Assembly (NCBI GenBank): GCA_948099385.1 | Contig: CANUEZ040000205.1 | Span: 2,728,001 to 2,792,000 of the forward strand | Length of the DNA stretch: 64,000 nt | Direction: 5' to 3' | Source: Fasciola hepatica | Lineage: Eukaryota; Platyhelminthes; Trematoda; Plagiorchiida; Fasciolidae | Part shown: one piece after another, positions 1 through 33,698 of the stretch | Layout: each line of letters opens with the position of its first letter | How positions within the stretch are numbered: the stretch's first letter is position 1 | The notes under the pieces: generated by a model | What the model saw: the letters and a program-made list of their open reading frames with translations, nothing else | What the model was told of the DNA's origin: nothing | Database searches by the model: none | Program-made: the position numbers and the translations under genes

Positions 1-28
1 ACTGAGCATTGAAATCCATGGAAGCACT

Positions 29-6500: not shown

Positions 6501-7512
6501 CCCAAATGAAAAACCTACACAGCTTCCCTACAATGCATGCAATTATTAGTATTAGGAGATTAGATTAGATTAGATTAGATTTGTATAATATGATTGATCA
6601 TGCAGCTTGAACGCTCAACTGAGCATTGAAATCCATGGAAGCACTCACTGTACAGCTGTTTCATCCTTGTACGGACTCGACCCGTCAGCAGTGCACATCG
6701 ACCGAGCAACCACGGGGACTCCAACAACCGGTGAACCATTGTGAATCGAACAACTCAACAACACAAGGCTATCCGGGATGGCTATCAACGCTATGTTCAA
6801 CATCTACACTACATCATATTTAGCACCCTTCCCAAACTGGATTCAAATTTCAATGGTAACAACCAGCTTCGCACACACCGATCGACTCCTATGATGGATG
6901 ACTTCTCTGTAAGGGCCTGAGTACAACCAACGCATTCCCAGATGAAAAACCTACACAGCTTCCTTACTATGCATGCAATTGTTGAGAAGTATTAGGAGAT
7001 TAGATTAGATTAGATTAGAGTTGTATAATATGATTGATCATGCAGCTTGAACGCTCAACTGAGCATTGAAATCCATGGAAGCACTCAATTTACAGCTGTT
7101 TCATCCTTGTTCGGACTCGACTCATCAGCAGTGCACATCGACCGAACAACCACTGGGACTCCAACAACCGGTGAACCATTGTGAATCGAACAACTCAACA
7201 ACAGAAGGCTATCCGGGATGGCTATCAACGCTTTGTTCAACATCTACACTACATCATATATAGCACCCTTCCCAAACTGGCTTCAAATTTCAATGGTAAC
7301 AACCAGCTTCGCACACACCGATCGACTCCTATGATGGATGACTTCTCTGTAGGGGCCTAAGTACAACCAACGCATTCCCAAATGAAAAACCTACACAGCT
7401 TCCTTACTATGCATGCAATTGATTAGTAGTAGGAGATTAGATTAGATTAGATTAGATTAGATTAGATTTGTACAATATGATTGATCATGAAGCTTGAACG
7501 CTCAACTGAGCA

Positions 7513-10164: not shown

Positions 10165-13100
10165 TTGAAATCCATGGAAGCACTCACTGTACAGCTGTTT
10201 CATCCTTGTTCGGACTCGACTCATCAGCAGTGCACATCGACCGAGCAACCACGGGGACTCCAACAACCGGTGAACCATTGTGAATCGAACAACTCAACAA
10301 CACAAGGCTATCCGGGATGGCTATCAACGCTCCGTTCAACATCCACACTACATCATATATGGCACTCTTCCCTAACTGCCTTCAAATTGCAATGGTAACA
10401 ACCAGCTTCGCGCACACCGATCGACTCCTATGATGGATGACTTCTCTGTAGGGGCCTAAGTACAACCAACGCATTCCCAAATGAAAAACCTACACAGCTT
10501 CCTTACTATGCATGCAATTGATTAGTAATAGGAGATCAGATTAGATTAGATTAGATTAGATTAGATTTGTATAATATGATTGATCATGCTGCTTGAACGC
10601 TCAACTGAGCATTGAAATCCATGGAAGCACTCACTGTACAGCTGTTTCATCCTTGTTCGGACTCGACTCATCAGCAGTGCACATCGACCGAGCAACCACG
10701 GGGACTCCAACAACCGGTGAACCATTGTGAATCGAACAACTCAACAACACAAGGCTATCCGGGATGGCTATCAACGCTCCGTTCAACATCCACACTACAT
10801 CATATATGGCACTCTTCCCTAACTGCCTTCAAATTGCAATGGTAACAACCAGCTTCGCGCACACCGATCGACTCCTATGATGGATGACTTCTCTGTAGGG
10901 GCCTAAGTACAACCAACGCATTCCCAAATGAAAAACCTACACAGCTTCCTTACTATGCATGCAATTGATTAGTAGTAGGAGATTAGATTAGATTAGATTA
11001 GATTTGTATAATATGATTGATCATGCAGCTTGAACGCTCAACTGAGCATCGAAATCCATGGAAGCACTCACTGTACAGCTGTTTCATCCTTGTTCGGACT
11101 CGACTCATCAGCAGTGCACATCGACGGAGCAACCACGGGGACTCCAACAACCGGTGAACCATTCTGAATCGAACAACTCAACAACACAAGGCTATCCGGG
11201 ATGGCTATCAACGCTTTGTTCAACATCTACACTACATCATATATAGCACCCTTCCCAAACTGGCTTCAAATTTCAATGGTAACAACCAGCTTCGCACACA
11301 CCGATCGACTCCTATGATGGATGAATACTCTGTAGGGGTCTAAGTACAACCAACGCATTCCCAAATAAAAAACCTACACAGCTTCCTTACTATGCATGCA
11401 ATTGATTAGTAATAGGAGATTAGATTAGATTAGATTAGATTAGATTAGATTTGTATAATATGATTGATCATGCAGCTTGAACGCTCAACTGAGCATTGAA
11501 ATCCATGGAAGCACTCACTGTACAGCTGTTTCATCCTTGTTCGGACTCGACTCATCAGCAGTGAACATCGACCGAGCAACCACGGGGACTCTAACAACCG
11601 GTGAATCACTGTGAATCGAACAACTCAACAACACAAGGCTATCCGGGATGGCTATCAACGCTTTGTTCAACATCTACACTACATCATTTATAGCACCTTT
11701 CCCAAACTGGCTTCAAATTTGAATGGTAACAACAAGCTTCGCGCATACCGATCGACTCCTATGATGGATGACTTCTCTGTAGGGGCCTGAGTAAAACCAA
11801 CGCATTCCCAAATGAAAAACCTACACAGCTTCCCTACAATGCATGCAATTGATTAGTATTAGGAGATTAGATTAGATTAGATTAGATTTGTATAATATGA
11901 TTGATCATGCAGCTTGAACGCTCAACTGAGCATTGAAATCCATGGAAGCACTCACTGTACAGCTGTTTCATCCTTGTACGGACTCGACCCGTCAGCAGTG
12001 CACATCGACCGAGCAACCACGGGGACTCCAACAACTGGTGAACCATTGTGAATCGAACAACTCAACAACAGAAGGCTATCCGGGATGGCTATCAACGCTT
12101 TGTTCAACATCTACACTACATCATATTTAGCACCTTTCCCAAACTGGCTTCAAATTTCAATGGTAACAACCAGCTTCGCGCACACCGATCGACTCCTATG
12201 ATGGATGACTTCTCTGTAGGGGCCTAAGTACAACCAACGCATTCCCAAATGAAAAACCTACACAGCTTCCTTAGTATGCATGCAATTGATTAGTAGTAGA
12301 AGATTAGATTAGATTAGATTAGATTTGTATAATATGATTGATCATGCCGCTTGATCGCTCAACTGAGCATTGAAATCCATGGGAGCACTCACTGTACAGC
12401 TGTTTCATCCTTGTTCGTACTCGACCCGTCAGCAGTGCACATCGACCGAGCAACCACGGGGACTCCAACAACCGGTGAACCATTGTGAATCGAACAACTC
12501 AACAACACAAGGCTATCCGCAATGGCTATCAACGCTTTGTTCAACATCTACACTACATCATATTTAGCACCCTTCCCAAACTGGCTTCAAATTTCAATGG
12601 TAACAACCAGCTTCGCGCACACCGATCGACTCCTATGATGGATGACTTCTCTGTAGGGGCCTAAGTACAACCAACGCATTCCCAAATGAAAAACCTACAC
12701 AGCTTCCTTACTATGCATGCAATTGATTAGTAATAGGAGATCAGATTAGATTAGATTAGATTAGATTAGATTTGTATAATATGATTGATCATGCTGCTTG
12801 AACGCTCAACTGAGCATTGAAATCCATGGAAGCACTCACTGTACAGCTGTTTCATCCTTGTTCGGACTCGACTCATCAGCAGTGCACATCGACCGAGCAA
12901 CCACGGGGACTCCAACAACCGGTGAACCATTGTGAATCGAACAACTCAACAACACAAGGCTATCCGGGATGGCTATCAACGCTCCGTTCAACATCCACAC
13001 TACATCATATATGGCACTCTTCCCTAACTGCCTTCAAATTGCAATGGTAACAACCAGCTTCGCGCACACCGATCGACTCCTATGATGGATGACTTCTCTG

Positions 13101-14577
13101 TAGGGGCCTAAGTACAACCAACGCACTCCCAAATGGAAAACCTACACAGCTTCCTTACTATGCATGCAATTGATTAGTAGTAGGAGATTAGATTAGATTA
13201 GATTAGATTTGTATAATATGATTGATCATGCAGCTTGAACGCTCAACTGAGCATCGAAATCCATGGAAGCACTCACTGTACAGCTGTTTCATCCTTGTTC
13301 GGACTCGACTCATCAGCAGTGCACATCGACCGAGCAACCACGGGGACTCCAACAACCGGTGAACCATTGTGAATCGAACAACTCAACAACACAAGGCTAT
13401 CCGGGATGGCTATCAACGCTTTGTTCAACATCTACACTACATCATATATAGCACCCTTCCCAAACTGGCTTCAAATTTCAATGGTAAAAACCAGCTTCGC
13501 ACACACCGATCGACTCCTATGATGGATGACTTCTCTGTAGGGGTCTAAGTACAACCAACGCATTCCCAAATGAAAAACCTACACAGCTTCCTTACTATGC
13601 ATGCAATTGATTAGTAATAGGAGATTAGATTAGATTAGATTAGATTAGATTAGATTTGTATAATATGATTGATCATGCAGCTTGAACGCTGAACTGAGCG
13701 TTGAAATCCATGGAAGCACTCACTGTACAGCTGTTTCATCCTTGTTCGGACTCGACTCATCAGCAGTGAACATCGACCGAGCAACCACGGGGACTCTAAC
13801 AACCGGTGAATCACTGTGAATCGAACAACTCAACAACACAAGGCTATCCGGGATGGCTATCAACGCTTTGTTCAACATCTACACTACATCATTTATAGCA
13901 CCTTTCCCAAACTGGCTTCAAATTTGAATGGTAACAACAAGCTTCGCGCACACCGATCGACTCCTATGATGGATGACTTCTCTGTAGGGGCCTGAGTAAA
14001 ACCAACGCATTCCCAAATGAAAAACCTACACAGCTTCCCTACAATGCATGCAATTGATTAGTATTAGGAGATTAGATTAGATTAGATTAGATTTGTATAA
14101 TATGATTGATCATGCAGCTTGAACGCTCAACTGAGCATTGAAATCCATGGAAGCACTCACTGTACAGCTGTTTCATCCTTGTACGGACTCGACCCGTCAG
14201 CAGTGCACATCGACCGAGCAACCACGGGGACTCCAACAACTGGTGAACCATTGTGAATCGAACAACTCAACAACACAAGGCTATCCGGGATGGCTATCAA
14301 CGCTTTGTTCAACATCTACACTACATCATATTTAGCACCCTTCCCAAACTGGCTTCAAATTTGAATGGTAACAACAAGCTTCGCGCACACCGATCGACTC
14401 CTATGATGGATGACTTCTCTGTAGGGGCCTAAGTACAACCAACGCATTCCCGAATGAAAAACCTACACATCTTCATTAATATGCATGCAATAGTTGGGAA
14501 ATATTAGGAGATTAGATTAGATTAGATTAGATTTGTATAATATGATTGATCATGCAGCTTGAACGCTCAACTGAGCA
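10165..14577 (+). repeat. Array section 3: tandem monomer duplication and 2205-bp five-monomer unit
   Basis: Monomers 10165 and 10612 look identical, including CTCCGTTCAAC and ATATGGCACTC, so one 447-bp monomer has been duplicated. Monomers 10612, 11049, 11496 and 11933 recur 2205 bp later as 12817, 13254, 13701 and 14138. Similarity fades in the second half of the last one. Monomer 12370 matches 9718, which extends the unit to the left. Confidence 0.85.
10185..10232 (-). ncRNA. Hammerhead ribozyme copy, start of a run of intact copies
   Basis: Strict motif. The copies at 10185, 10632, 11069 and 11516 are consecutive monomers that all keep the strict motif, so this stretch could yield monomer-length RNAs of 437 or 447 nt rather than multimers. 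Confidence 0.72.
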
Positions 14578-17500
14578 TTGAAATCCATGGAAGCACTCAG
14601 TGTACAGCTGTTTCATCCTTGTTCGCACTCGACCCATCAGCAGTGCACATCGACCGAGCAACCACGGGGACTCCAACAACCGGTGAACCATTGTGAATCG
14701 AACAACTCAACAACACAAGGCTATCCGGGATGGCTATCAACGCTTTGTTCAACATCTACACTACATCATATATAGCACCCTTCCCAAACTGGCTTCACAT
14801 TTCAATGGTAACAACCAGCTTCGCGCACACCGATCGACTCCTATGATGGATGACTTCTCTGTAGGGGCCTAAGTACAACCAACGCATTCCCAAATGAAAA
14901 ACCTACACAGCTTCATTAATATGCATGCAATTGTTGGGAAGTATTAGGAGATTAGATTAGATTAGATTGGATTTGTATAATATGATTGATCATGCAGCTT
15001 GAACGCTCAACTGAGCATTGAAATCCATGGAAGCACTCACTGTACAGCTGTTTCATCCTTGTTCGGACTCGACTCATCAGCAGTGCACATCGACCGAGCA
15101 ACCACGGGGACTCCAACAACCGGTGAACCATTGTGAATCGAACAACTCAACAACACAAGGCTATCCGGGATGGCTATCAACGCTTTGTTCAACATCCACA
15201 CTACATCATATATAGCACTCTTCCCTAACTGCCTTCAAATTGCAATGGTAACAACCAGCTTCGCGCACACCGATCGACTCCTATGATGGATGACTTCTCT
15301 GTAGGGGCCTAAGTACAACCAACGCATTCCCAAATGAACAACCTACACAGCTTCCTTACTATGCATGCAATTGATTAGTAGTAGGAGATTAGATTAGATT
15401 AGATTAGATTAGATTTGTATAATATGATTGATCATGCAGCTTGAACGCTCAACTGAGCATCGAAATCCATGGAAGCACTCACTGTACAGCTGTTTCATCC
15501 TTGTTCGGACTCGACTCATCAGCAGTGCACATCGACCGAGCAACCACGGGGACTCCAACAACCGGTGAACCATTGTGAATCGAACAACTCAACAACACAA
15601 GGCTATCCGGGATGGCTATCAACGCTTTGTTCAACATCTACACTACATCATATATAGCACCCTTCCCAAACTGGCTTCAAATTGCAATGGTAAAAACCAG
15701 CTTCGCACACACCGATCGACTCCTATGATGGATGAATACTCTGTAGGGGTCTAAGTACAACCAACGCATTCCCAAATGAAAAACCTACACAGCTTCCTTA
15801 CTATGCATGCAATTGATTAGTAATAGGAGATTAGATTAGATTAGATTAGATTAGATTAGATTTGTATAATATGATTGATCATGCAGCTTGAACGCTCAAC
15901 TGAGCATTGAAATCCATGGAAGCACTCACTGTACAGCTGTTTCATCCTTGTTCGGACTCGACTCATCAGCAGTGAACATCGACCGAGCAACCACGGGGAC
16001 TCTAACAACCGGTGAATCATTGTGAATCGAACAACTCAACAACACAAGGCTATCCGGGATGGCTATCAACGCTTTGTTCAACATCTACACTACATCATTT
16101 ATAGCACCCTTCCCAAACTGGCTTCAAATTTGAATGGTAACAACAAGCTTCGCGCACACCGATCGACTCCTATGATGGATGACTTCTCTGTAGGGGCCTG
16201 AGTAAAACCAACGCATTCCCAAATGAAAAACCTACACAGCTTCCCTACAATGCATGCAATTGATTAGTATTAGGAGATTAGATTAGATTAGATTAGATTT
16301 GTATAATATGATTGATCATGCAGCTTGAACGCTCAACTGAGCATTGAAATCCATGGAAGCACTCACTGTACAGCTGTTTCATCCTTGTACGGACTCGACC
16401 CGTCAGCAGTGCACATCGACCGAGCAACCACGGGGACTCCAACAACCGGTGAACCATTGTGAATCGAACAACTCAACAACACAAGGCTATCCGGGATGGC
16501 TATCAACGCTTTGTTCAACATCTACACTACATCATTTATAGCACCTTTCCCAAACTTGCTTCAAATTTGAATGGTAACAACAAGCTTCGCGCACACCGAT
16601 CGACTCCTATGATGGATGACTTCTCTGTAGGTGTCTAAGTACAACCAACGCATTCCCAAATGAAAAACCTACACAGCTTCCTTACTATGCATGCAATTGA
16701 TTAGTAATAGGAGATTAGATTAGATTAGATTAGATTAGATTAGATTTGTATAATATGATTGATCATGCAGCTTGAACGCTCAACTGAGCATTGAAATCCA
16801 TGGAAGCACTCACTGTACAGCTGTTTCATCCTTGTTCGGACTCGACTCATCAGCAGTGAACATCGACCGAGCAACCACGGGGACTCCAACAACCGGTGAA
16901 CCATTGTGAATCGAACAACTCAACAACACAAGGCTATCCGGGATGGCTATCAACGCTTTGTTCAACATCTACACTACATCATTTATAGCACCTTTCCCAA
17001 ACTTGCTTCAAATTTGAATGGTAACAACAAGCTTCGCGCACACCGATCGACTCCTATGATGGATGACTTCTCTGTAGGGGCCTGAGTAAAACCAACGCAT
17101 TCCCAAATGAAAAACCTACACAGCTTCCCTACAATGCATGCAATTGATTAGTATTAGGAGATTAGATTAGATTAGATTAGATTTGTATAATATGATTGAT
17201 CATGCAGCTTGAACGCTCAACTGAGCATTGAAATCCATGGAAGCACTCACTGTACAGCTGTTTCATCCTTGTACGGACTCGACCCGTCAGCAGTGCACAT
17301 CGACCGAGCAACCACGGGGACTCCAACAACCGGTGAACCATTGTGAATCGAACAACTCAACAACACAAGGCTATCCGGGATGGCTATCAACGCTTTGTTC
17401 AACATCTACACTACATCATTTATAGCACCTTTCCCAAACTGGCTTCAAATTTGAATGGTAACAACAAGCTTCGCGCACACCGATCGACTCCTATGATGGA

Positions 17501-20500
17501 TGACTTCTCTGTAGGGGCCTGAGTAAAACCAACGCATTCCCAAATGAAAAACCTACACAGCTTCCCTACAATGCATGCAATTGATTAGTATTAGGAGATT
17601 AGATTAGATTAGATTAGATTTGTATAATATGATTGATCATGCAGCTTGAACGCTCAACTGAGCATTGAAATCCATGGAAGCACTCACTGTACAGCTGTTT
17701 CATCCTTGTACGGACTCGACCCGTCAGCAGTGCACATCGACGGAGCAACCACGGGGACTCCAACAACCGGTGAACCATTGTGAATCGAACAACTCAACAA
17801 CACAAGGCTATCCGGGATGGCTATCAACGCTTTGTTCAACATCTACACTACATCATTTATAGCACCTTTCCCAAACTTGCTTCAAATTTGAATGGTAACA
17901 ACAAGCTTCGCGCACACCGATCGACTCCTATGATGGATGACTTCTCTGTAGGTGTCTAAGTACAACCAACGCATTCCCAAATGAAAAACCTACACAGCTT
18001 CCTTACTATGCATGCAATTGATTAGTAATAGGAGATTAGATTAGATTAGATTAGATTAGATTAGATTTGTATAATATGATTGATCATGCAGCTTGAACGC
18101 TCAACTGAGCATTGAAATCCATGGAAGCACTCACTGTACAGCTGTTTCATCCTTGTTCGGACTCGACTCATCAGCAGTGAACATCGACCGAGCAACCACG
18201 GGGACTCCAACAACCGGTGAACCATTGTGAATCGAACAACTCAACAACACAAGGCTATCCGGGATGGCTATCAACGCTTTGTTCAACATCTACACTACAT
18301 CATTTATAGCACCTTTCCCAAACTGGCTTCAAATTTCAATGGTAACAACCAGCTTCGCGCACACCGATCGACTCCTATGATGGATGACTTCTCTGTAGGG
18401 GCCTGAGTAAAACCAACGCATTCCCAAATGAAAAACCTACACAGCTTCCCTACAATGCATGCAATTGATTAGTATTAGGAGATTAGATTAGATTAGATTA
18501 GATTTGTATAATATGATTGATCATGCAGCTTGAACGCTCAACTGAGCATTGAAATCCATGGAAGCACTCACTGTACAGCTGTTTCATCCTTGTACGGAAT
18601 CGACCCGTCAGCAGTGCACATCGACCGAGCAACCACGGGGACTCCAACAACCGGTGAACCATTGTGAATCGAACAACTCAACAACACAAGGCTATCCGGG
18701 ATGGCTATCAACGCTTTGTTCAACATCTACACTACATCATTTATAGCACCTTTCCCAAATATGCTTCAAATTTCAATGGTAACAACAAGCTTCGCGCACA
18801 CCGATCGACTCCTATGATGGATGACTTCTCTGTAGGGGCCTGAGTAAAACCAACGCATTCCCAAATGAAAAACCTACACAGCTTCCCTACAATGCATGCA
18901 ATTGATTAGTATTAGGAGATTAGATTAGATTAGATTAGATTTGTATAATATGATTGATCATGCAGCTTGAACGCTCAACTGAGCATTGAAATCCATGGAA
19001 GCACTCACTGTACAGCTGTTTCATCCTTGTACGGACTCGACCCGTCAGCAGTGCACATCGACCGAGCAACCACGGGGACTCCAACAACCGGTGAACCATT
19101 GTGAATCGAACAACTCAACAACACAAGGCTATCCGGGATGGCTATCAACGCTTTGTTCAACATCTACACTACATCATATTTAGCACCCTTCCCAAACTGG
19201 CTTCAAATTTCAATGGTAACAACCAGCTTCGCGCACACCGATCGACTCCTATGATGGATGACTTCTCTGTAGGGGCCTAAGTACAACCAACGCATTCCCA
19301 AATGAAAAATCTACACAGCTTCCTTACTATGCATGCAATTGATTAGTAATAGGAGATCAGATTAGATTAGATTAGATTAGATTAGATTTGTATAATATGA
19401 TTGATCATGCAGCTTGAACGCTCAACTGAGCATTGAAATCCATGGAAGCACTCACTGTACAGCTGTTTCATCCTTGTTCGGACTCGACTCATCAGCAGTG
19501 AACATCGACCGAGCAACCACGGGGACTCTAACAACCGGTGAATCATTGTGAATCGAACAACTCAACAACACAAGGCTATCCGGGATGGCTATCAACGCTT
19601 TGTTCAACATCTACACTACATCATTTATAGCACCTTTCCCAAACTTGCTTCAAATTTGAATGGTAACAACAAGCTTCGCGCACACCGATCGACTCCTATG
19701 ATGGATGACTTCTCTGTAGGGGCCTGAGTAAAACCAACGCATTCCCAAATTGAAAACCTACACAGCTTCCCTACAATGCATGCAATTGATTAGTAGTAGG
19801 AGATTAGATTAGATTAGATTAGATTTGTATAATATGATTGATCATGCAGCTTGAACGCTCAACTGAGCATTGAAATCCATGGAAGCACTCACTGTACAGC
19901 TGTTTCATCCTTGTACGGACTCGACCCGTCAGCAGTGCACATCGACCGAGCAACCACGGGGACTCCAACAACCGGTGAACCATTGTGAATCGAACAACTC
20001 AACAACACAAGGCTATCCGGGATGGCTATCAACGCTTTGTTCAACATCTACACTACATCATATTTAGCACCCTTCCCAAACTGGCTTCAAATTTCAATGG
20101 TAACAACCAGCTTCGCGCACACCGATCGACTCCTATGATGGATGACTTCTCTGTAGGGGCCTAAGTACAACCAACGCATTCCCAAATGAAAAACCTACAC
20201 AGCTTCATTAATATGCATGCAATTGTTGGGAAGTATTAGGAGATTAGATTAGATTAGATTAGATTTGTATAATATGATTGATCATGCAGCTTGAACGCTC
20301 AACTGAGCATTGAAATCCATGGAAGCACTCACTGTACAGCTGTTTCATCCTTGTTCGGACTCGACTCATCAGCAGTGCACATCGACCGAGCAACCACGGG
20401 GACTCCAACAACCGGTGAACCATTGTGAATCGAACAACTCAACAACACATGGCTATCCGGGATGGCTATCAACGCTTTGTTCAACATCCACACTACATCA

Positions 20501-21624
20501 TATATAGCACTCTTCCCTAACTGCCTTCAAATTGCAATGGTAACAACCAGCTTCGCGCACACCGATCGACTCCTATGATGGATGACTTCTCTGTAGGGGC
20601 CTAAGTACAACCAACGCATTCCCAAATGAAAAACCTACACAGCTTCCTTACTATGCATGCAATTGATTAGTAGTAGGAGATTAGATTAGATTAGATTAGA
20701 TTAGATTTGTATAATATGATTGATCATGCAGCTTGAACGCTCAACTGAGCATCGAAATCCATGGAAGCACTCACTGTACAGCTGTTTCATCCTTGTTCGG
20801 ACTCGACTCATCAGCAGTGCACATCGACCGAGCAACCACGGGCACTCCAACAACCGGTGAACCATTGTGAATCGAACAACTCAACAACACAAGGCTATCC
20901 GGGATGGCTATCAAAGATTTGCTCAACATCTACACTACATCATATATAGCACCCTTCCCAAACTGGCTTCAAATTGCAATGGTAAAAACCAGCTTCGCAC
21001 ACACCGATCGACTCCTATGATGGATGACTTCTCTGTAGGGGCCTAAGTACAACCAACGCATTCCCAAATGAAAAACCTACACAGCTTCCTTACTATGCAT
21101 GCAATTGATTAGTATTAGGAGATTAGATTAGATTAGATTAGATTTGTATAATATGATTGATCATGCAGCTTGAACGCTCAACTGAGCATTGAAATCCATG
21201 GAAGCACTCACTGTACAGCTGTTTCATCCTTGTTCGGACTCGACTCATCAGCAGTGAACATCGACCGAGCAACCACGGGGACTCTAACAACCGGTGAATC
21301 ATTGTGAATCGAACAACTCCACAACACAAGGCTATCCGGGATGGCTATCAACGCTTTGTTCAACATCTACACTACATCATATATAGCACCCTTCCCAAAC
21401 TGGCTTCAAATTTCAATGGTAACAACAAGCTTCGCGCACACCGATCGACTCCTATGATGGATGATTTCTCTGTAGGGGCCTGAGTAAAACCAACGCATTC
21501 CCAAATGAAAAACCTACACAGCTTCCTTACTATGCATGCAACTATTAGTATTAGGAGATTAGATTAGATTAGATTAGATTTTTATAATATGATTGATCAT
21601 GCAGCTTGAACGCTCAACTGAGCA
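14578..21624 (+). repeat. Array section 4: 1321-bp three-monomer higher-order unit
   Basis: The core is 15907-20309. A monomer with GTGAACATCG is followed by monomers with GTACGGACTCGACCCGTCAG, giving units that start at 15907 (two monomers), 16791 (three), 18112 (three) and 19433 (two). The distances 16791-18112 and 18112-19433 are both 1321 bp (447+437+437). The flanking monomers 15018, 15460 and 15907 recur as 20310, 20752 and 21189, about 5.29 kb away. Confidence 0.85.
15038..15085 (-). ncRNA. Hammerhead ribozyme copy
   Basis: Strict motif on the minus strand, followed by strict copies in the next two monomers (15480 and 15927). The preceding monomer at 14578 is degenerate: GACCCATCAG on the plus strand changes core base A9 to G, and its CAGTG in place of CACTG breaks stem I. 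Confidence 0.72.
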
Positions 21625-22382
21625 TTGAAATCCATGGAAGCACTCACTGTACAGCTGTTTCATCCTTGTTCGGACTCGACCCGTCAGCAGTGCACATCGA
21701 CCGAGCAACCACGGGGACTCCAACAACCGGTGAACCATTGTGAATCGAACAACTCAACAACACAAGGCTATCCGCAATGGCTATCAACGCTTTGTTCAAC
21801 ATCTACACTACATCATATTTAGCACCCTTCCCAAACTGGATTCAAATTTCAATGGTAACAACCAGCTTCGCACACACCGATCGACTCCTATGATGGATGA
21901 CATCTCTGTAAGGGCCTGAGTACACCCAACGCATTCCCAAATGAAAAACCTACACAGCTTCCTTACTATGCATGCAATTGTTGAGAAGTATTAGGAGATT
22001 AGATTAGATTAGATTAGAAATGTATAATATGATTGATCATGCAGCTTGAACGCTCAACTGAGCATTGAAATCCATGGAAGCACTCACTTTACAGCTGTTT
22101 CATCCTTGTTCGGACTCGACTCATCAGCAGTGCACATCGACCGAACAACAACTGGGACTCCAACAACCGGTGAACCATTGTGAATCGAACAACTCAACAA
22201 CACAAGGATATCCGCAATGGCATCAACGCTTTGTTCAACATCTACACTACATCATATATAGCACCCTTCCCAAACTGGCTTCAAATTTCAATGGTAACAA
22301 CCAGCTTCGCACACACCGATCGACTCCTATGATGGATGACTTCTCTGTAGGGGCCTAAGTACAACCAACGCATTCCCAAATG

Positions 22383-22387
22383 AAAAA
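22383..22387 (-). terminator. Candidate pol III terminator (T5)
   Basis: The plus-strand A5 reads TTTTT on the minus strand. A transcript started near 22705 at the A-box would run through the ribozyme at 22578-22531, cross the monomer boundary and the ATTAG run, and end here, about 320 nt long. Some monomers have only four T's (AAATTGAAAACC or AAATGGAAAACC forms). Confidence 0.25.
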
Positions 22388-22530
22388 CCTACACAGCTTC
22401 CTTACTATGCATGCAATTGATTAGTAGTAGGAGATTAGATTAGATTAGATTAGATTAGATTAGATTTGTACAATATGATTGATCATGAAGCTTGAACGCT
22501 CAACTGAGCATTGAAATCCATGGAAGCACT

Positions 22531-22578
22531 CACTGTACAGCTGTTTCATCCTTGTTCGGACTCGACTCATCAGCAGTG
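22531..22578 (-). ncRNA. Hammerhead self-cleaving ribozyme, type I with minimal stem III (reference copy)
   Basis: Read on the minus strand, the order is: CACUG (stem I, 5' side); CUGAUGA (core C3-A9); a 19-nt stem II region starting GUC and ending GGAU; GAAA (G12 to A15.1); then CAGCUGUA, in which U16.1 and A17 form the cleavage triplet GUA; then CAGUG (stem I, 3' side). CACUG and CAGUG are perfectly complementary over 5 bp and abut the core exactly. Stem III is A-U and C-G closed by an AGCU loop. Cleavage is predicted between plus positions 22536 and 22535. Such short stem III hammerheads are known in newt, schistosome and cave cricket satellites and in animal retrozymes, and often act as dimers. 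Weak points are the G-U pair at 10.1/11.1 and a GAGUC duplication in stem II. By hand count 59 strict copies exist, with left coordinates 29, 466, 2234, 4887, 8864, 10185, 10632, 11069, 11516, 12837, 13274, 13721, 15038, 15480, 15927, 16811, 18132, 19453, 20330, 20772, 21209, 22531, 24279, 26470, 27815, 28267, 28729, 30041, 30498, 31386, 31838, 32300, 32752, 33651, 35882, 36324, 37666, 39445, 39887, 40344, 42102, 44311, 45652, 46104, 46993, 47445, 48337, 51448, 51885, 54106, 54543, 55427, 56313, 56758, 60296, 61193, 62517, 62964, 63861; each is 48 nt. Confidence 0.75.
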
Positions 22579-22627
22579 CACATCGACCGAGCAACCACGG
22601 GGACTCCAACAACCGGTGAACCATTGT

Positions 22628-22636
22628 GAATCGAAC
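22628..22636 (-). promoter_or_regulatory. RNA polymerase III B-box-like match
   Basis: The minus strand reads GTTCGATTC, which fits the B-box core GTTCRANNC at every defined position; the flanking bases of the longer tRNA consensus do not match. It occurs at monomer positions 118-126 in most copies. It lies upstream of the hammerhead in the same direction and downstream of the A-box match. A chance match to so short a motif is possible, so this is a candidate only. Confidence 0.35.
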
Positions 22637-22685
22637 AACTCAACAACACAAGGCTATCCGGGATGGCTATCAACGCTTTGTTCAA

Positions 22686-22696
22686 CATCTACACTA
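22686..22696 (-). promoter_or_regulatory. RNA polymerase III A-box-like match
   Basis: The minus strand reads TAGTGTAGATG, which fits TRGYNNARNNG at every defined position. It begins 60 nt upstream of the B-box match, a wider gap than in tRNA genes but within what pol III promoters tolerate. A TATA-like CTATATATG lies just upstream in copies with the CATATATAG form. Copies with CATCCACACTA (for example the monomers at 9, 1330, 10165, 15018, 20310 and 39425) lose the key A. Confidence 0.3.
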
Positions 22697-22880
22697 CATC
22701 ATATATAGCACCCTTCCCAAACTGGCTTCAAATTTCAATGGTAACAACCAGCTTCGCGCACACCGATCGACTCCTATGATGGATGACTTCTCTGTAGGGG
22801 CCTAAGTACAACCAACGCATTCCCAAATTGAAAACCTACACAGCTTCCTTAGTATGCATGCAATTGATTAGTAGTAGAAG

Positions 22881-22900
22881 ATTAGATTAGATTAGATTAG
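22881..22900 (+). repeat. ATTAG (TTAGA) pentamer run, four units, reference copy
   Basis: Every monomer has such a run before the TTGTATAATATG stretch. Four units give a 437-bp monomer, five 442, six 447, seven 452, eight 457 and nine 462. The run is therefore a microsatellite nested in the satellite and the main source of length variation. Interruptions such as TTAGG, ATATT or GATGAG occur in some copies. Confidence 0.95.
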
Positions 22901-25900
22901 ATTTGTATAATATGATTGATCATGCCGCTTGAACGCTCAACTGAGCATTGAAATCCATGGAAGCACTCACTGTACAGCTGTTTCATCCTTGTTCGGACTC
23001 GACCCGTCAGCAGTGCACATCGACCGAGCAACCACGGGGACTCCAACAACCGGTGAACCATTGTGAATCGAACAACTCAACAACACAAGGCTATCCGCAA
23101 TGGCTATCAACGCTTTGTTCAACATCTACACTACATCATATATAGCACCCTTCCCAAACTGGCTTCAAATTTCAATGGTAACAACAAGCTTCGCGCACAC
23201 CGATCGACTCCTATGATGGATGACTTCTCTGTAGGGGCCTAAGTACAACCAACGCATTCCCAATTGGAAAACCTACACAGCTTCCTTAGTATGCATGCAA
23301 TTGATTAGTAGTAGGAGATTAGATTAGATTAGATTAGATTTGTATAATATGATTGATCATGCCGCTTGAACGCTCAACTGAGCATTGAAATCCATGGAAG
23401 CACTCACTGTACAGCTGTTTCATCCTTGTTCGGACTCGACCCATCAGCAGTGCACATCGACCGAGCAACCACGGGGACTCCAACAACCGGTGAACCATTG
23501 TGAATCGAACAACTCAACAACACAAGGCTATCCGGGATGGCTATCAACGCTTTGTTCAACATCTACACTACATCATATATAGCACCCTTCCCAAACTGGC
23601 TTCAAATTTCAATGGTAACAACCAGCTTCGCGCACACCGATCGACTCCTATGATGGATGACTTCTCTGTAGGGGCCTAAGTACAACCAACGCATTCCCAA
23701 ATTGAAAACCTACACAGCTTCCTTAGTATGCATGCAATTGATTAGTAGTAGAAGATTAGATTAGATTAGATTAGATTTGTATAATATGATTGATCATGCC
23801 GCTTGATCGCTCAACTGAGCATTGAAATCCATGGAAGCACTCACTGTACAGCTGTTTCATCCTTGTTCGGACTCGACCCGTCAGCAGTGCACATCGACCG
23901 AGCAACCACGGGGACTCCAACAACCGGTGAACCATTGTGAATCGAACAACTCAACAACACAAGGCTATCCGCAATGGCTATCAACGCTTTGTTCAACATC
24001 TACACTACATCATATATAGCACCCTTCCCAAACTGGCTTCAAATTTCAATGGTAACAACCAGCTTCGCGCACACCGATCGACTCCTATGATGGATGACTT
24101 CTCTGTAGGGGCCTAAGTACAACCAACGCATTCCCAAATGAAAAACCTACACAGCTTCCTTACTATGCATGCAATTGATTAGTAGTAGGAGATTAGGTTA
24201 GATTAGATTAGATTTGTATAATATGATTGATCATGCAGCTTGAACGCTCAACTGAGCATTGAAATCCATGGAAGCACTCACTGTACAGCTGTTTCATCCT
24301 TGTTCGGACTCGACTCATCAGCAGTGCACATCGACCGAGCAACCACGGGGACTCCAACAACCGGTGAACCATTGTGAATCGAACAACTCAACAACACAAG
24401 GCTATCCGGGATGGCTATCAACGCTTTGTTCAACATCTACACTACATCATATTTAGCACCCTTCCCAAACTGGCTTCAAATTTCAATGGTAACAACCAGC
24501 TTCGCGCACACCGATCGACTCCTATGATGGATGACTTCTCTGTAGGGGCCTAAGTACAACCAACGCATTCCCAAATGAAAAACCTACACAGCTTCCTTAC
24601 TATGCATGCAATTGATTAGTAGTAGGAGATTAGGTTAGATTAGATTAGATTTGTATAATATGATTGATCATGCAGCTTGAACGCTCAACTGAGCATTGAA
24701 ATCCATGGAAGCACTCAGTGTACAGCTGTTTCATCCTTGTTCGGACTCGACTCATCAGCAGTGCACATCGACCGAGCAACCACGGGGACTCCAACAACCG
24801 CTGAACCATTGTGAATCGAACAACTCAACAACACGAGGCTATCCGGGATGGCTATCAACGCTTTGTTCAACATCTACACTACATCATATATAGCACCCTT
24901 CCCAAACTGGCTTCAAATTTCAATGGTAACAACCAGCTTCGCGCACACCGATCGACTCCTATGATGGATGACTTCTCTGTAGGGGCCTAAGTACAACCAA
25001 CGCATTCCCAAATGAAAAATCTACACAGCTTCCTTACTATGCATGCAATTGATTAGTAGTAGGAGATTAGATTAGATTAGATTAGATTAGATTTGTATAA
25101 TATGATTGATCATGCAGCTTGAACGCTCAACTGAGCATTGAAATCCATGGAAGCACTCACTGTACAGCTGTTTCATCCTTGTTCGGACTCGACCCATCAG
25201 CAGTGCACATCGACGGAGCAACCACGGGGACTCCAACAACCGGTGAACCATTGTGAATCGAACAACTCAACAACAGAAGGCTATCCGGGATGACTATCAA
25301 CGCTTTGTTCAACATCTACACTACATCATATATAGCACCCTTCCCAAACTGGCTTCAAATTTCAATGGTAACAACCAGCTTCGCGCACACCGATCGACTC
25401 CTATGATGGATGACTTCTCTGTAGGGGCCTAAGTACAACCAACGCATTCCCAAATGAAAAATCTACACAGCTTCCTTACTATGCATGCAATTGATTAGTA
25501 GTAGGAGATTAGATTAGATTAGATTAGATTAGATTTGTATAATATGATTGATCATGCAGCTTGAACGCTCAACTGAGCATTGAAATCCATGGAAGCAATG
25601 TACAGCTATTTCCTCCTTTTCCGGACTCGACTCATCAACAGTGCACATCGACCCAGCAACCACGGGGACTCCAACAACCGGTGAACCATTGTGAATCGAA
25701 CAACTCAACAACACAAGGCTATCCGGGATGGCTATCAACGCTTTGTTCAACATCTACACTACATCATATATAGCACCCTTTCCAAACTGGCTTCAAATCT
25801 CAATGGTTACAACCAGCTTCGCGCACACCGATCGACTCCTATGATGGATGACTTCTCTGTAGGGGCCTAAGTACAACCAACGCATTCCCAAATGAAAAAT

Positions 25901-27031
25901 CTACACAGCTTCCTTACTATGCATGCAATTGATTAGTAGTAGGAGATTAGATTAGATTAGATTAGAAATGTATAATATGATTGATCATGCCGCTTGAACG
26001 CTCAACTGAGCATTGAAATCCATGGAAGCACTCACTGTACAGCTGTTTCATCCTTGTTCGGACTCGACCCATCAGCAGTGCACATCGACCGAGCAACCAC
26101 GGGGACTCCAACAACCGCTGAACCATTGTGAATCGAACAACTCAACAACACAAGGCTATCCGCAATGGCTATCAACGCTTTGTTCAACATCTACACTACA
26201 TCATATATAGCACCTTTCCTAAACTGGCTTCAAATTTCAATGGTAACAACCAGCTTCGCGCACACCGATCGACTCCTATGATGGATCACTTCTCTGTAGG
26301 GGCCTAAGTACAACCAACGCATTCCCAAATGAAAAACCTACACAGCTTCCTTACTATGCATGCAATTGATTAGTAGTAGGAGATTAGATTATATTAGATT
26401 AGATCTGTATAATATGATTGATCATGCAGCTTGAACGCTCAACTGAGCATTGAAATCCATGGAAGCACTCACTGTACAGCTGTTTCATCCTTGTTCGGAC
26501 TCGACTCATCAGCAGTGCACATCGACCGAGCAACCACGGGGACTCCAACAACCGGTGAACCATTGTGAATCGAACAACTCAACAACACAAGGCTATCCGG
26601 GATTGCTATCAACGCTCCGTTCAACATCTACACTACATCATATATAGCACCCTTCCCAAACTGGCTTCAAATTTCAATGGTAACAACCAGCTTCGCGCAC
26701 ACCGATCGACTCCTATGATGGATGACTTCTCTGTAGGGGCCTAAGTACAACCAACGCATTCCCAAATGAAAAACCTACACAGCTTCCTTACTATGCATGC
26801 AATTGATTAGTAGTAGGAGATTAGATTAGATTAGATTAGATTAGATTAGATTAGATTAGATTTGTATAATATGATTGATCATGCCGCTTGAACGCTCAAC
26901 TGAGGATTGAAATCCATGGAAGCTCTCGCTGTACAGCTGTTTCATCCTTGTTCGGACTCGACTCATCAGCAGTGCACATCGACCGAGCAACCACGGGGAC
27001 TCCAACAACCGGTGAACCATTGTGAATCGAA

Positions 27032-27050
27032 GAACTCCACTTTGTATGTC
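27032..27050 (+). repeat. Monomer variant with a replaced 19-bp patch
   Basis: Here ACTCCACTTTGTATGTC stands where most monomers have ACTCAACAACACAAGGC, with no change in length and unchanged sequence on both sides. The first changed base also alters the B-box match (minus strand CTTCGATTC). The same or a related patch (TTTATATG, TTTATAAG forms) occurs in the monomers at 30478, 32280, 36756, 37646, 44291, 44743, 46084, 47425, 50091 and 52749, and not in the first 26 kb. Confidence 0.85.
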
Positions 27051-28266
27051 TATCCGGGATGGCTATCAACGCTTTGTTCAACATCTACACTACATCATAT
27101 TTAGCACCCTTCCCAAACTGGCTTCAAATTTGAATGGTAACGACAAGCTTCGCGCACACCGATCGACTCCTATGATGGAGGACTTCTCTGTAGGGGCCTG
27201 AGTAAAACCAACGCATTCCCAAATGAAAAACCTACACAGCTTCCTTACTATGCATGCAATTGATTAGTAGTAGGAGATTAGATTAGATTAGATTAGATTA
27301 GATTAGATTTGTATAATATGATTGATCATGCAGCTTGAACGCTCAACTGAGCATTGAAATCCATGGAAGCACTCATGTACAGCTGTTTCATCCTTGTTCG
27401 GACTCGACTCATCAGCAGTGCACATCGACCGAGCAACCACGGGGACTCCAACAACCGGTGAACCATTGTGAATCGAACAACTCAACAACACAAGGCTATC
27501 CGGGATGGCTATCAACGATTTGTTCAACATCTACACTACATCATATATAGCACCTTTCCCAAACTGGCTCCAAATTTGAATGGTAACAACCAGCTTCGCG
27601 CACACCGATCGACTCCTATGATGGATGACCTCTCTGTAGGGGCCTAATTACAACCAACGCATTCCCAAATGAAAAACCTACACAGCTTCCTTACTATGCA
27701 TGCAATTGATTAGTAGTAGGAGATTAGGTTAGATTAGATTAGATTAGATTTGTATAATATGATTGATCATGCAGCTTGAACGCTCAACTGAGCATTGAAA
27801 TCCATGGAAGCACTCACTGTACAGCTGTTTCATCCTTGTTCGGACTCGACTCATCAGCAGTGCACATCGACCGAGCAACCACGGGGACTCCAACAACCGG
27901 TGAACCATTGTGAATCGAACAACTCAACAACACAAGGCTATCCGGGATGGCTATCAACGCTTTGTTCAACATCTACACTACATCATATATAGCACCCTTC
28001 CCAAACTGGCTTCAAATTTCAATGGTAACAACCAGCTTCGCGCACACCGATCGACTCCTATGATGGATGACTTCTCTGTAGGGGCCTGAGTACAACCAAC
28101 GCATTCCCAAATGAAAAACCTACACAGCTTCCTTACTATGCATGCAATTGATTAGTAGTAGGAGATTAGATTAGATTAGATTAGATTAGATTAGATTAGA
28201 TTTGTATAATATGATTGATCATGCAGCTTGAACGCTCAACTGAGCATTGAAATCCATGGAAGCACT

Positions 28267-28314
28267 CACTGTACAGCTGTTTCATCCTTGTTCGGACTCG
28301 ACTCATCAGCAGTG
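28267..28314 (-). ncRNA. Hammerhead ribozyme copy in the 462-bp monomer class
   Basis: Strict motif. The monomer carries the longest ATTAG run seen in the window (nine units). Its partner in the 8-monomer duplication, at 31838-31885, is also intact. Confidence 0.72.
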
Positions 28315-28616
28315 CACATCGACCGAGCAACCACGGGGACTCCAACAACCGGTGAACCATTGTGAATCGAACAACTCAACAACACAAGGCTATCCGGGAT
28401 TGCTATCAACGCTCCGTTCAACATCTACACTACATCATATATAGCACCCTTCCCAAACTGGCTTCAAATTTCAATGGTAACAACCAGCTTCGCGCACACC
28501 GATCGACTCCTATGATGGATGACTTCTCTGTAGGGGCCTAAGTACAACCAACGCATTCCCAAATGGAAAACCTACACAGCTTCCTTACTATGCATGCAAT
28601 TGATTAGTAATAGGAG

Positions 28617-28661
28617 ATTAGATTAGATTAGATTAGATTAGATTAGATTAGATTAGATTAG
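28617..28661 (+). repeat. Longest pentamer run, nine ATTAG units
   Basis: Nine uninterrupted ATTAG units, part of a 462-bp monomer. The same length occurs at 32188-32232, exactly 3571 bp away, as expected from the 8-monomer duplication. Confidence 0.95.
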
Positions 28662-28785
28662 ATTTGTATAATATGATTGATCATGCAGCTTGAACGCTCA
28701 ACTGAGGATTGAAATCCATGGAAGCTATCACTGTACAGCTGTTTCATCCTTGTTCGGACTCGACTCATCAGCAGTGCACATCGAC

Positions 28786-31700
28786 CGAGCAACCACGGGG
28801 ACTCCAACAACCGGTGAACCATTGTGAATCGAACAACTCAACAACAGAAGGCTATCCGGGATGACTATCAACGCTTTGTTCAACATCTACACTACATCAT
28901 ATATAGCACCCTTCCCAAACTGGCTTCAAATTTCAATGGTAACAACCAGCTTCGCGCACACCGATCGACTCCTATGATGGATGACTTCTCTGTAGGGGCC
29001 TAAGTACAACCAACGCATTCCCAAATGAAAAATCTACACAGCTTCCTTACTATGCATGCAATTGATTAGTAGTAGGAGATTAGATTAGATTAGATTAGAT
29101 TAGATTTGTATAATATGATTGATCATGCAGCTTGAACGCTCAACTGAGCATTGAAATCCATGGAAGCAATGTACAGCTATTTCCTCCTTTTCCGGACTCG
29201 ACTCATCAACAGTGCACATCGACCCAGCAACCACGGGGACTCCAACAACCGGTGAACCATTGTGAATCGAACAACTCAACAACACAAGGCTATCCGGGAT
29301 GGCTATCAACGCTTTGTTCAACATCTACACTACATCATATATAGCACCCTTCCCAAACTGGCTTCAAATCTCAATGGTTACAACCAGCTTCGCGCACACC
29401 GATCGACTCCTATGATGGATGACTTCTCTGTAGGGGCCTAAGTACAACCAACGCATTCCCAAATGAAAAATCTACACAGCTTCCTTACTATGCATGCAAT
29501 TGATTAGTAGTAGGAGATTAGATTAGATTAGATTAGATTTTTATAATTTGATTGATCATGCCGCTTGAACGCTCAACTGAGCATTGAAATCCATGGAAGC
29601 ACTCACTGTACAGCTGTTTCATCCTTGTTCGGACTCGACCCATCAGCAGTGCACATCGACCGAGCAACCACGGGGACTCCAACAACCGCTGAACCATTGT
29701 GAATCGAACAACTCAACAACACAAGGCTATCCGCAATGGCTATCAACGCTTTGTTCAACATCTACACTACATCATATATAGCACCTTTCCTAAACTGGCT
29801 TCAAATTTCAATGGTAACAACCAGCTTCGCGCACACCGATCGACTCCTATGATGGATGACTTCTCTGTAGGGGCCTAAGTACAACCAACGCATTCCCAAA
29901 TGAAAAACCTACACAGCTTCCTTACTATGCATGCAATTGATTAGTAGTAGGAGATTAGATTATATTAGATTAGATCTGTATAATATGATTGATCATGCAG
30001 CTTGAACGCTCAACTGAGCATTGAAATCCATGGAAGCACTCACTGTACAGCTGTTTCATCCTTGTTCGGACTCGACTCATCAGCAGTGCACATCGACCGA
30101 GCAACCACGGGGACTCCAACAACCGGTGAACCATTGTGAATCGAACAACTCAACAACACAAGGCTATCCGGGATTGCTATCAACGCTCCGTTCAACATCT
30201 ACACTACATCATATATAGCACCCTTCCCAAACTGGCTTCAAATTTCAATGGTAACAACCAGCTTCGCGCACACCGATCGACTCCTATGATGGATGACTTC
30301 TCTGTAGGGGCCTAAGTACAACCAACGCATTCCCAAATGAAAAACCTACACAGCTTCCTTACTATGCATGCAATTGATTAGTAGTAGGAGATTAGATTAG
30401 ATTAGATTAGATTAGATTAGATTAGATTAGATTTGTATAATATGATTGATCATGCCGCTTGAACGCTCAACTGAGGATTGAAATCCATGGAAGCTCTCAC
30501 TGTACAGCTGTTTCATCCTTGTTCGGACTCGACTCATCAGCAGTGCACATCGACCGAGCAACCACGGGGACTCCAACAACCGGTGAACCATTGTGAATCG
30601 AAGAACTCCACTTTGTATGTCTATCCGGGATGGCTATCAACGCTTTGTTCAACATCTACACTACATCATATTTAGCACCCTTCCCAAACTGGCTTCAAAT
30701 TTGAATGGTAACGACAAGCTTCGCGCACACCGATCGACTCCTATGATGGAGGACTTCTCTGTAGGGGCCTGAGTAAAACCAACGCATTCCCAAATGAAAA
30801 ACCTACACAGCTTCCTTACTATGCATGCAATTGATTAGTAGTAGGAGATTAGATTAGATTAGATTAGATTAGATTAGATTTGTATAATATGATTGATCAT
30901 GCAGCTTGAACGCTCAACTGAGCATTGAAATCCATGGAAGCACTCATGTACAGCTGTTTCATCCTTGTTCGGACTCGACTCATCAGCAGTGCACATCGAC
31001 CGAGCAACCACGGGGACTCCAACAACCGGTGAACCATTGTGAATCGAACAACTCAACAACACAAGGCTATCCGGGATGGCTATCAACGATTTGTTCAACA
31101 TCTACACTACATCATATATAGCACCTTTCCCAAACTGGCTCCAAATTTGAATGGTAACAACCAGCTTCGCGCACACCGATCGACTCCTATGATGGATGAC
31201 CTCTCTGTAGGGGCCTAATTACAACCAACGCATTCCCAAATGAAAAACCTACACAGCTTCCTTACTATGCATGCAATTGATTAGTAGTAGGAGATTAGGT
31301 TAGATTAGATTAGATTAGATTTGTATAATATGATTGATCATGCAGCTTGAACGCTCAACTGAGCATTGAAATCCATGGAAGCACTCACTGTACAGCTGTT
31401 TCATCCTTGTTCGGACTCGACTCATCAGCAGTGCACATCGACCGAGCAACCACGGGGACTCCAACAACCGGTGAACCATTGTGAATCGAACAACTCAACA
31501 ACACAAGGCTATCCGGGATGGCTATCAACGCTTTGTTCAACATCTACACTACATCATATATAGCACCCTTCCCAAACTGGCTTCAAATTTCAATGGTAAC
31601 AACCAGCTTCGCGCACACCGATCGACTCCTATGATGGATGACTTCTCTGTAGGGGCCTGAGTACAACCAACGCATTCCCAAATGAAAAACCTACACAGCT

Positions 31701-32356
31701 TCCTTACTATGCATGCAATTGATTAGTAGTAGGAGATTAGATTAGATTAGATTAGATTAGATTAGATTAGATTTGTATAATATGATTGATCATGCAGCTT
31801 GAACGCTCAACTGAGCATTGAAATCCATGGAAGCACTCACTGTACAGCTGTTTCATCCTTGTTCGGACTCGACTCATCAGCAGTGCACATCGACCGAGCA
31901 ACCACGGGGACTCCAACAACCGGTGAACCATTGTGAATCGAACAACTCAACAACACAAGGCTATCCGGGATTGCTATCAACGCTCCGTTCAACATCTACA
32001 CTACATCATATATAGCACCCTTCCCAAACTGGCTTCAAATTTCAATGGTAACAACCAGCTTCGCGCACACCGATCGACTCCTATGATGGATGACTTCTCT
32101 GTAGGGGCCTAAGTACAACCAACGCATTCCCAAATGGAAAACCTACACAGCTTCCTTACTATGCATGCAATTGATTAGTAATAGGAGATTAGATTAGATT
32201 AGATTAGATTAGATTAGATTAGATTAGATTAGATTTGTATAATATGATTGATCATGCAGCTTGAACGCTCAACTGAGGATTGAAATCCATGGAAGCTATC
32301 ACTGTACAGCTGTTTCATCCTTGTTCGGACTCGACTCATCAGCAGTGCACATCGAC
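28786..32356 (+). repeat. Eight-monomer block, 3571 bp, copy B
   Basis: Direct tandem copy of 25215-28785. Similarity continues to about 32404, where the next monomer switches to the 19-bp patch form. The exchange junction therefore lies within about 28786-28833, a region shared by both parents. Monomers 32280 and 32732 after the block resemble 30478 and 30925, so part of a third copy follows. Confidence 0.9.
32188..32232 (+). repeat. Nine-unit ATTAG run, duplicate of 28617-28661
   Basis: Same nine-unit run in the second copy of the 3571-bp block. The equal length of such an unstable tract argues that the block duplication is recent. Confidence 0.93.
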
Positions 32357-33650
32357 CGAGCAACCACGGGGACTCCAACAACCGGTGAACCATTGTGAAT
32401 CGAAGAACTCCACTTTGTATGTCTATCCGGGATGGCTATCAACGCTTTGTTCAACATCTACACTACATCATATTTAGCACCCTTCCCAAACTGGCTTCAA
32501 ATTTGAATGGTAACAACAAGCTTCGCGCACACCGATCGACTCCTATGATGGATGACTTCTCTGTAGGGGCCTAAGTACAACCAACGCATTCCCAAATGAA
32601 AAACCTACACAGCTTCCTTACTATGCATGCAATTGATTAGTAGTAGGAGATTAGATTAGATTAGATTAGATTATATTAGATTAGATTTGTATAATATGAT
32701 TGATCATGCAGCTTGAACGCTCAACTGAGCATTGAAATCCATGGAAGCACTCACTGTACAGCTGTTTCATCCTTGTTCGGACTCGACTCATCAGCAGTGC
32801 ACATCGACCGAGCAACCACGGGGACTCCAACAACCGGTGAACCATTGTGAATCGAACAACTTAACAACACAAGGCTATCCGGGATGGCTATCAACGATTT
32901 GTTCAACATCTACACTACATCATATATAGCACCTTTCCCAAACTGGCTCCAAATTTGAATGGTAACAACCAGCTTCGCGCACACCGATCGACTCCTATGA
33001 TGGATGACCTCTCTGTAGGGGCCTAATTACAACCAACGCATTCCCAAATGAAAAACCTACACAGCTTCCTTACTATGCATGCAATTGATTAAAAGTAGGA
33101 GATTAGGTTAGATTAGATTAGATTAGATTTGTATAATATGATTGATCATGCAGCTTGAACGCTCAACTGAGCATTGAAATCCATGGAAGCACTCAGTGTA
33201 CAGCTGTTTCATCCTTGTACGGACTCGACTCATCAGCAGTGAACATCGACCGAGCAACCACGGGGACTCCAACAACCGGTGAACCATTGTGAATCGAACA
33301 ACTCAACAACACAAGGCTATCCGGGATGGCTATCAACGCTTTGTTCAACATCTACACTACATCATATATAGCACCCTTCCCAAACTGGCTTCAAATTTCA
33401 ATGGTAACAACCAGCTTCGCGCACACCGATCGACTCCTATGATGGATGACTTCTCTGTAGGGGCCTAAGTACAACCAACGCATTCCCAAATGAAAAACCT
33501 ACACAGCTTCCTTACTATGCATGCAATTGATTAGTAGTAGGAGATAAGATTAGATTAGATTAGATTAGATTAGATTAGATTAGATTTGTATAATATGATT
33601 GATCATGCAGCTTGAACGCTCAACTGAGCATTGAAATCCATGGAAGCACT

Positions 33651-33698
33651 CACTGTACAGCTGTTTCATCCTTGTTCGGACTCGACTCATCAGCAGTG
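33651..33698 (-). ncRNA. Hammerhead ribozyme copy
   Basis: Strict motif. Both adjacent monomers (33174 and 34083) have CAGTG in place of CACTG at monomer positions 21-25, which breaks the central pair of stem I. This copy is therefore an intact ribozyme between two degenerate ones. Confidence 0.72.

Follow-up and report, generated by a model that had tools for sequence, protein, structure and literature searches.

We found that a tandem satellite of the fluke Fasciola hepatica carries, on its minus strand, a motif that is real and derived from a hammerhead ribozyme. The satellite shares common descent with a family of dispersed elements in the same genome; these relatives have the ribozyme in its canonical form and have been mobile in the past, and the satellite form is altered. 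Its likely ancestor is the type I hammerhead carried by a tRNA-headed retroelement that was short and non-autonomous, and the ribozyme in the satellite is now probably a relic or weak. The hammerhead origin is settled because the dispersed relatives carry the same flanks together with canonical type I hammerheads. The initial annotation had read the motif as a type I hammerhead encoded by every monomer. As to origin this reading stands, given relatives with the same flanks, many above the Rfam cut-off, and stems that covary. A working ribozyme per monomer is not supported: there is a 5-nt duplication, core and full stem I are intact together in fewer than half of the monomers, the satellite has no Rfam match at the cut-off and its tRNA-like head is decayed.

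The window, meaning the whole 64,000-nucleotide stretch analysed (C205:2728001-2792000), is one satellite array with a period of 437 and 144.4 head-to-tail copies, from which 144 whole monomers were cut (most 437-452 bp, all 433-462). Along contig C205, matches to one monomer span 2576990 to 2876889 among the best candidates scored. With a GC content of 0.43-0.44 and a tandem unit of a few hundred bp, the satellite fits the retrozyme or Sm-alpha type of repeat, for which GC is below 50%. Higher-order repeat structure is slight, and a plasmid collection gave no match to the window sequence. At window positions 26818-32235, microsatellite lengths of 9, 7, 6, 8 and 10 units reappear 3571 bp further on, as if a block of about eight monomers had recently been duplicated within the array. 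The repeat unit at 22412..22858 runs, on the minus strand, from a 5' region through a tRNA relic and the hammerhead-derived motif to a tail with a TAATC microsatellite. The features of the window are the following:

1..64000, no strand: satellite array with 144 whole monomers
22412..22858, minus strand: one complete repeat unit, with approximate limits taken from comparison with dispersed-element tails
22432..22466, plus strand: (AGATT)7 microsatellite, expanded within the element tail
22531..22578, minus strand: hammerhead-derived motif in type I arrangement
22574..22578, minus strand: stem I, 5' strand CACUG
22567..22573, minus strand: core CUGAUGA (C3-A9)
22559..22568, minus strand: tandem 5-nt duplication GAGUC GAGUC, between core and stem II
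22544..22547, minus strand: core GAAA (G12 A13 A14 A15.1)
22537..22544, minus strand: self-complementary sequence ACAGCUGU
22535..22536, minus strand: expected cleavage site between A17 (22536) and C1.1 (22535), triplet GUA, placed by alignment with canonical relatives
22531..22535, minus strand: stem I, 3' strand CAGUG
22590..22662, minus strand: decayed tRNA-like head of the satellite, placed by comparison with dispersed locus L047

On the minus strand, 22531-22578 reads CACTG CTGATGA GTCGAGTCCGAACAAGGAT GAAAC AGCT GTA CAGTG. The perfect stem I (CACTG/CAGTG) adjoining both the core and GUA, as first described, can be read directly from these letters. CUGAUGA and GAAA are both there as well, but not at the right spacing, since 19 nt separate them against 14 in the relatives. 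The strict motif, core plus stem I, occurs in 66/144 monomers, and over the whole window 67 times on the minus strand and never on the plus strand; the hand count in the initial annotation was 59. The exact 48-mer of 22531-22578 is present in 57 of the 144 monomers, and an intact core (CUGANGA / GAAA / UH), whatever the state of stem I, in 89. Core variants include G at A9 (34/144) and U at C3 (13/144). When 37 hammerheads from other parts of the genome were made into a covariance model, the window gave 145 matches to it, every one on the minus strand (E 5e-12 to 1e-5). A motif in every monomer holds as homology but not as an intact core. The palindrome region, GAAACAGCTGTA, was found in 128/144 monomers. 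Judged from its letters, ACAGCUGU could form a 2-bp stem III within a monomer and a longer stem III between two copies. At 22527-22535 and in other monomers, a 4-base insertion after CAGTG alters the outer stem I; here window-type satellite reads CAGTGAGTGC, as against CAGTGC in the dispersed copies and on C187.

The main alteration lies between the core and stem II. A tandem duplication of GAGTC lengthens the CUGANGA-to-GAAA spacer to 19 nt, the value at each of the 94 satellite places counted, compared with 14 nt in 36/37 dispersed relatives and 16 in the remaining one. The duplication is absent from all 37 dispersed hammerheads of alignment A1. Its first copy overlaps G8 and A9 of the core. 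The stem II that has 4 bp in the relatives is shifted 5 nt away, leaving a stem of only 3 bp, one of them G-U, able to abut the core. The doubled GAGUC, GTCGAGTC, is found in 130/144 monomers and the full GAGTCGAGTC in 101/144. Genome-wide, a pattern search that allowed up to 3 mismatches gave 5,940 places with the duplication variant (2,405 and 3,535; control 0), and among the matches listed all but two lie in arrays on C191. If most of these 5,940 places are arrayed, satellite of the duplication type would amount to about 2.6 Mb. A second array type, on C187, also has the duplication, with stem I intact in the monomers of L071. All 16 rows from the satellite group together as a clade (support 0.945) in a tree built on 59 rows. 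On this tree 3 changes suffice for the duplication state, and none of 500 shuffles required fewer than 12. The duplication also occurs in dispersed form, in both arms of C182:11760391/11760718, which means that a carrier of the duplication still moved. In a tandem on C112, some units have the duplication and others do not. The C191 array at 8.53 Mb has, close to its edge, diverged duplication-free units (L049:55-109 and 478-532) beside duplicated ones.

Canonical hammerheads occur elsewhere in the genome. In the 1.5-Gb genome, the pattern CTGATGAGTCC-N3-9-GGAYGAAAC has 91 exact matches, and the same pattern read backwards has none. COX1 of this assembly, translated with the flatworm code, shares 95% identity with Fasciola gigantica and 85% with Fasciolopsis, which places the host among the fasciolid flukes. 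The Rfam type I hammerhead model, RF00163 (gathering cut-off 34 bits), gave 37 matches above its cut-off among the 38 listed for this genome and no match in 14 control genomes; 74 of 288,504 first-look candidates were scored, which makes these counts lower bounds. Copies below the cut-off were L026 (26.0), L048 (24.9 and 21.2) and L047, whose duplication-free copy scores 28.8 bits and whose two duplication copies score 25.0 each. The satellite consensus is matched by 36/38 of the dispersed loci L009-L046 (E<=1e-6, 65-98% identity per stretch), the two without a match at this threshold being L012 and L040, and the likeness extends to the flanks of the hammerhead. L040 has a separate canonical hammerhead (1495-1549, 39.5 bits) with a GUC triplet and a stem I of CACCA/UGGUG, a two-pair compensated change. 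Hammerheads away from the pattern matches have an intact core in 8/20 cases, a set in which L018 is in fact a pattern match and three are cut by the arm junction. On C243, C251 and C306, canonical cores occur on alternating strands along the contig, with steps of about 20-38 and 50-69 kb on C243 and C306, suggesting a large tandem repeat with two embedded hammerhead copies.

The helices of the wider family are supported by covariation on an alignment fitted to the structure. The model of 37 hammerheads gave 123 matches over 48 loci, reduced to 88 distinct rows (A2). In A2, 9 pairs showed change in both partners, where shuffles gave 3.7 (2 of 500). Such cells numbered 21, compared with 4.5 in shuffles (0 of 500), and the covariation score was 0.107 against 0.070 (0 of 500), with slid versions reaching 0.037; because A2 was fitted to the structure, the test leans towards the model structure. 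The 37 rows of A1 alone show weak covariation (3 pairs against 1.6; 82 of 500).

The dispersed loci also have a tRNA-like segment directly upstream of the hammerhead. The Rfam tRNA model (cut-off 29) was passed in 2/5 dispersed loci, L047 (34.3 and 31.7) and L031 (30.4); L026 scores 28.7, just under the cut-off, and no match is listed in L040 or L048. ARAGORN detected no intact tRNA gene in six loci, one of them satellite. In the satellite this segment is decayed: it is identical to the tRNA-like segment of L047 at 58/72 bases, and no match to the tRNA model is listed for 22000-24200 at E<=10. Because of this decay, the satellite has no evident promoter of its own.

The shared sequence in the dispersed loci is 118-669 bp long in the 26 loci whose ends were used, and L022 and L023 have 976 bp in common. 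Each locus takes in roughly 1.5 kb on either side; L016-L019 represent just two places, in pieces that overlap. Many consist of two inverted arms with their 3' ends outward. In a survey of 38 loci (L009-L048 without L017 and L019), all fetched by hammerhead query, 17 had exactly one arm end per strand. A tail of about 30 bases is present on exactly one arm in 14 of these 17 two-armed loci (random 45-mers, 0/2000); L014 has it on both arms, and L020 and L023 on neither. The arms point 3'-outward in 16/17, the exception being L036, whose second arm is doubtful. Direct repeats with a score >=10 were found at the insertion ends of 8/26 loci (26 of the 38 loci L009-L046 were used and 12 left out) against 2/300 mispaired controls. 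The repeat of L027 is the element's own tail, which leaves seven credible loci with repeats of 11-15 bp. Target-site duplications longer than 4 bp, as in retrozymes, are thus found in a minority of dispersed copies.

How these elements moved can be read in two ways. The first, to which we give a little under an even chance, is that a LINE moved them by target-primed reverse transcription with template switching, the two-armed form being a by-product like that of twin priming. The seven credible direct repeats are LINE-like in length, and the schistosome relatives are termed SINE-like in the accessible part of PMC2770079. A LINE is a poorer match to the tail, which is on a single arm in most two-armed loci, and to the outward 3' ends. 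The Penelope-like copies of this genome share the latter arrangement: among neighbours within 6 kb, all 10 inverted pairs are 3'-outward, none is inverted inward and seven are tandem. The accessible part of PMC11167929 likewise describes an anole Penelope-like protein that extends both strands in vitro from two start sites, the interval between them corresponding to the optional tail.

The second reading, which we put forward tentatively, is that the tRNA-headed hammerhead retroelement was moved by Penelope-type, two-ended reverse transcription. A single RNA would serve both broken DNA ends as template, with priming at the outer site for one end and about 30 nt further in for the other, and such two-site priming would leave 3'-outward arms with the tail on one side. 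By analogy, a two-site start like that of the anole protein could yield two-armed, one-tailed copies. As a carrier of the duplicated GAGUC was still mobile, the hammerhead would either tolerate five extra nucleotides beside A9 or be dispensable for mobility. The genome has 90 matches to GIY-YIG frames, many of them several hundred residues long, with 828 recurring and some in tandem at 2752 bp. Points in favour of a LINE come from direct comparison with these elements. Neither the satellite nor the arms are significantly matched by L063, the Penelope-like element that was read; the top match of L063 (E 0.004) falls in the flank of L031, outside the element. The 13 GIY-YIG loci have no sequence in common with the hammerhead family at E<=0.1, and the one inverted Penelope pair compared, L052, shows neither a tail difference nor a direct repeat of 8 bp or more. 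A ribozyme shared with the Penelope-like element of this genome was rejected, since in L063 CUGANGA is absent outside the reading frame and nothing matches the family significantly.

Before its reading frame, at about 825-870, L063 (C140:15578701-15582200) reads TTGAAAA AGGTTACC CGT GGTGACC GAAAC GTC GAC. We take this to resemble a Penelope hammerhead that lacks stem III, with a long stem II and with U3-A8 in place of C3-G8.

With regard to the satellite itself, we consider it unlikely that the motif cleaves at a useful rate, as an active ribozyme that tolerates the five extra bases and cuts tandem transcripts into units of about 440 nt. The extra bases would either loop out on the N7/A9 side, leaving stem II with 4 bp, or form a bulge in stem II, and activity might perhaps require pairing of two copies by way of the ACAGCUGU palindrome. 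This reading can draw on the formally complete core in 89 monomers, on the frequency of the palindrome, and on the covariance model, whose two displayed alignments (52.4 bits) accommodate the extra bases next to A9, within the core. The duplication variant was mobile, and according to the accessible text of PMC6155905 the active form of newt and viroid hammerheads is a dimer in which helix III is longer. The preservation of GTCGAGTC in 130 monomers, the movement of a carrier and the number of complete cores all speak against a relic.

Several lines of evidence weigh against activity. The window has no Rfam hits at the gathering cut-off, and in a permissive scan of 22000-24200 Hammerhead_1 was the best of 4227 families with 19.1 bits (E 0.32), against the 34 required. 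The initial annotation had proposed the type I covariance model as a check and lack of a match above threshold as one of two refuting outcomes; such a match is lacking in the satellite and is found in the dispersed relatives. We looked for selection on the satellite ribozyme and found none: mean identity of the core is 0.971, compared with 0.977 for random sites (P 0.75), and the motif window ranks 249 of 399. A9 is replaced by G in almost a quarter of the monomers, and the decayed head offers no evident promoter. In addition, the modelled fold is worse than the canonical one. The canonical hammerhead fold has an energy of -10.4 kcal/mol and the satellite fold -2.3, 0.4 or -6.9 kcal/mol for three placements of the extra bases; outer stem I pairs are counted in the canonical energy only, which makes up part of the 3.5 kcal/mol gap. 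These energies leave out non-canonical core contacts, and the canonical form is itself not the minimum-energy fold. The insertion, the decayed head and the unconstrained mutation of the core together lead us to favour a relic or weak ribozyme.

That CUGAUGA and GAAA met in the satellite by accident, without hammerhead ancestry, we reject as extremely improbable: the score below the Rfam cut-off would suit it, but a generic type I descriptor matched only 9/20000 dinucleotide-shuffled monomers, in agreement with the first assessment that joint chance occurrence is very unlikely, and the 91 against 0 pattern matches, the relatives above the cut-off with the same flanks and the covarying stems all contradict it.

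Under the relic reading, the source family would be a fasciolid fluke retroelement akin to schistosome Sm-alpha and animal retrozymes, whose dispersed unit comprises a tRNA-like head, a canonical hammerhead and a tail; this unit is frequently present as a pair of arms that point their 3' ends outward. Transcription was perhaps by RNA polymerase III from the tRNA head. The ribozyme of the source element presumably cut the transcript between GUA and CAGUG, and this cleavage presumably separated tandem transcripts into single units. A sublineage that had gained a second GAGUC between the core and stem II would then have been amplified into a megabase-scale satellite, the arrays probably being maintained by ordinary tandem-repeat turnover and not by cleavage.

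The fluke family resembles several known systems. According to the accessible parts of PMC2770079 and PMC4918200, Sm-alpha of Schistosoma is SINE-like and combines a tRNA part with a hammerhead. Likened by description and not by sequence alignment, the fluke family shares with Sm-alpha and Sj-alpha a trematode host, a tRNA-related segment with a type I hammerhead, and a high copy number. It differs in its satellite unit of mostly 437-452 bp, the GAGUC duplication at stem II and the decayed tRNA head; its dispersed copies are often two-armed with a one-sided tail, a form that the accessible parts of the same two papers do not mention for Sm-alpha. The W-element satellites of Schistosoma mansoni comprise, in the accessible part of PMC8490949, four families with hammerhead-like sequences and an extremely short stem III, some with mutated cores, and functional evidence is reported. 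The fluke satellite is similar in carrying hammerhead-like sequences with partly mutated cores, but those are elements of the W chromosome.

Animal non-LTR retrozymes, as described in the accessible text of PMC7229834, consist of tandem repeat units 150-450 bp long that contain type I hammerheads, have a GC content below 50% and show target-site duplications longer than 4 bp. The fluke family has tandem repeats, type I hammerheads, low GC and target-site duplications in common with them; unlike them, it has an altered satellite ribozyme and is known here from DNA. Penelope-like elements have minimal hammerheads, tandem copies and an optional tail of 30-40 bp in the accessible parts of PMC11167929 and PMC6155905, all of which have counterparts in the fluke family, including its tail of about 30 bases. 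The difference is that the family has no significant sequence match to the 13 GIY-YIG loci; in these comparisons at the DNA level, neither a reverse transcriptase nor a GIY-YIG frame showed up as part of it. The word hammerhead does not occur in the main text of a paper on Fasciola hepatica transposons (PMC11270206), and no Fasciola satellite of hammerhead type appears by title among the matches listed on trematode and Fasciola hammerheads, a set that lies mostly outside subscription papers.

The satellite derives from a hammerhead-carrying retroelement, and canonical and altered forms stand side by side in one genome. The pair amounts to a natural experiment that asks if hammerheads in satellites are under selection or simply passed on, and it connects hammerhead elements that have a tRNA head with end structures of the Penelope-like kind. 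Activity of the duplicated form, if it exists, would make this a naturally occurring hammerhead that has an insertion where the core meets stem II.

A further observation concerns contigs C429, C468, C471 and other short contigs, where 31/33 COX1 matches are full length and, where tandem, are spaced 14.2-14.9 kb apart. These contigs are apparently mitochondrial concatemers left as separate contigs.
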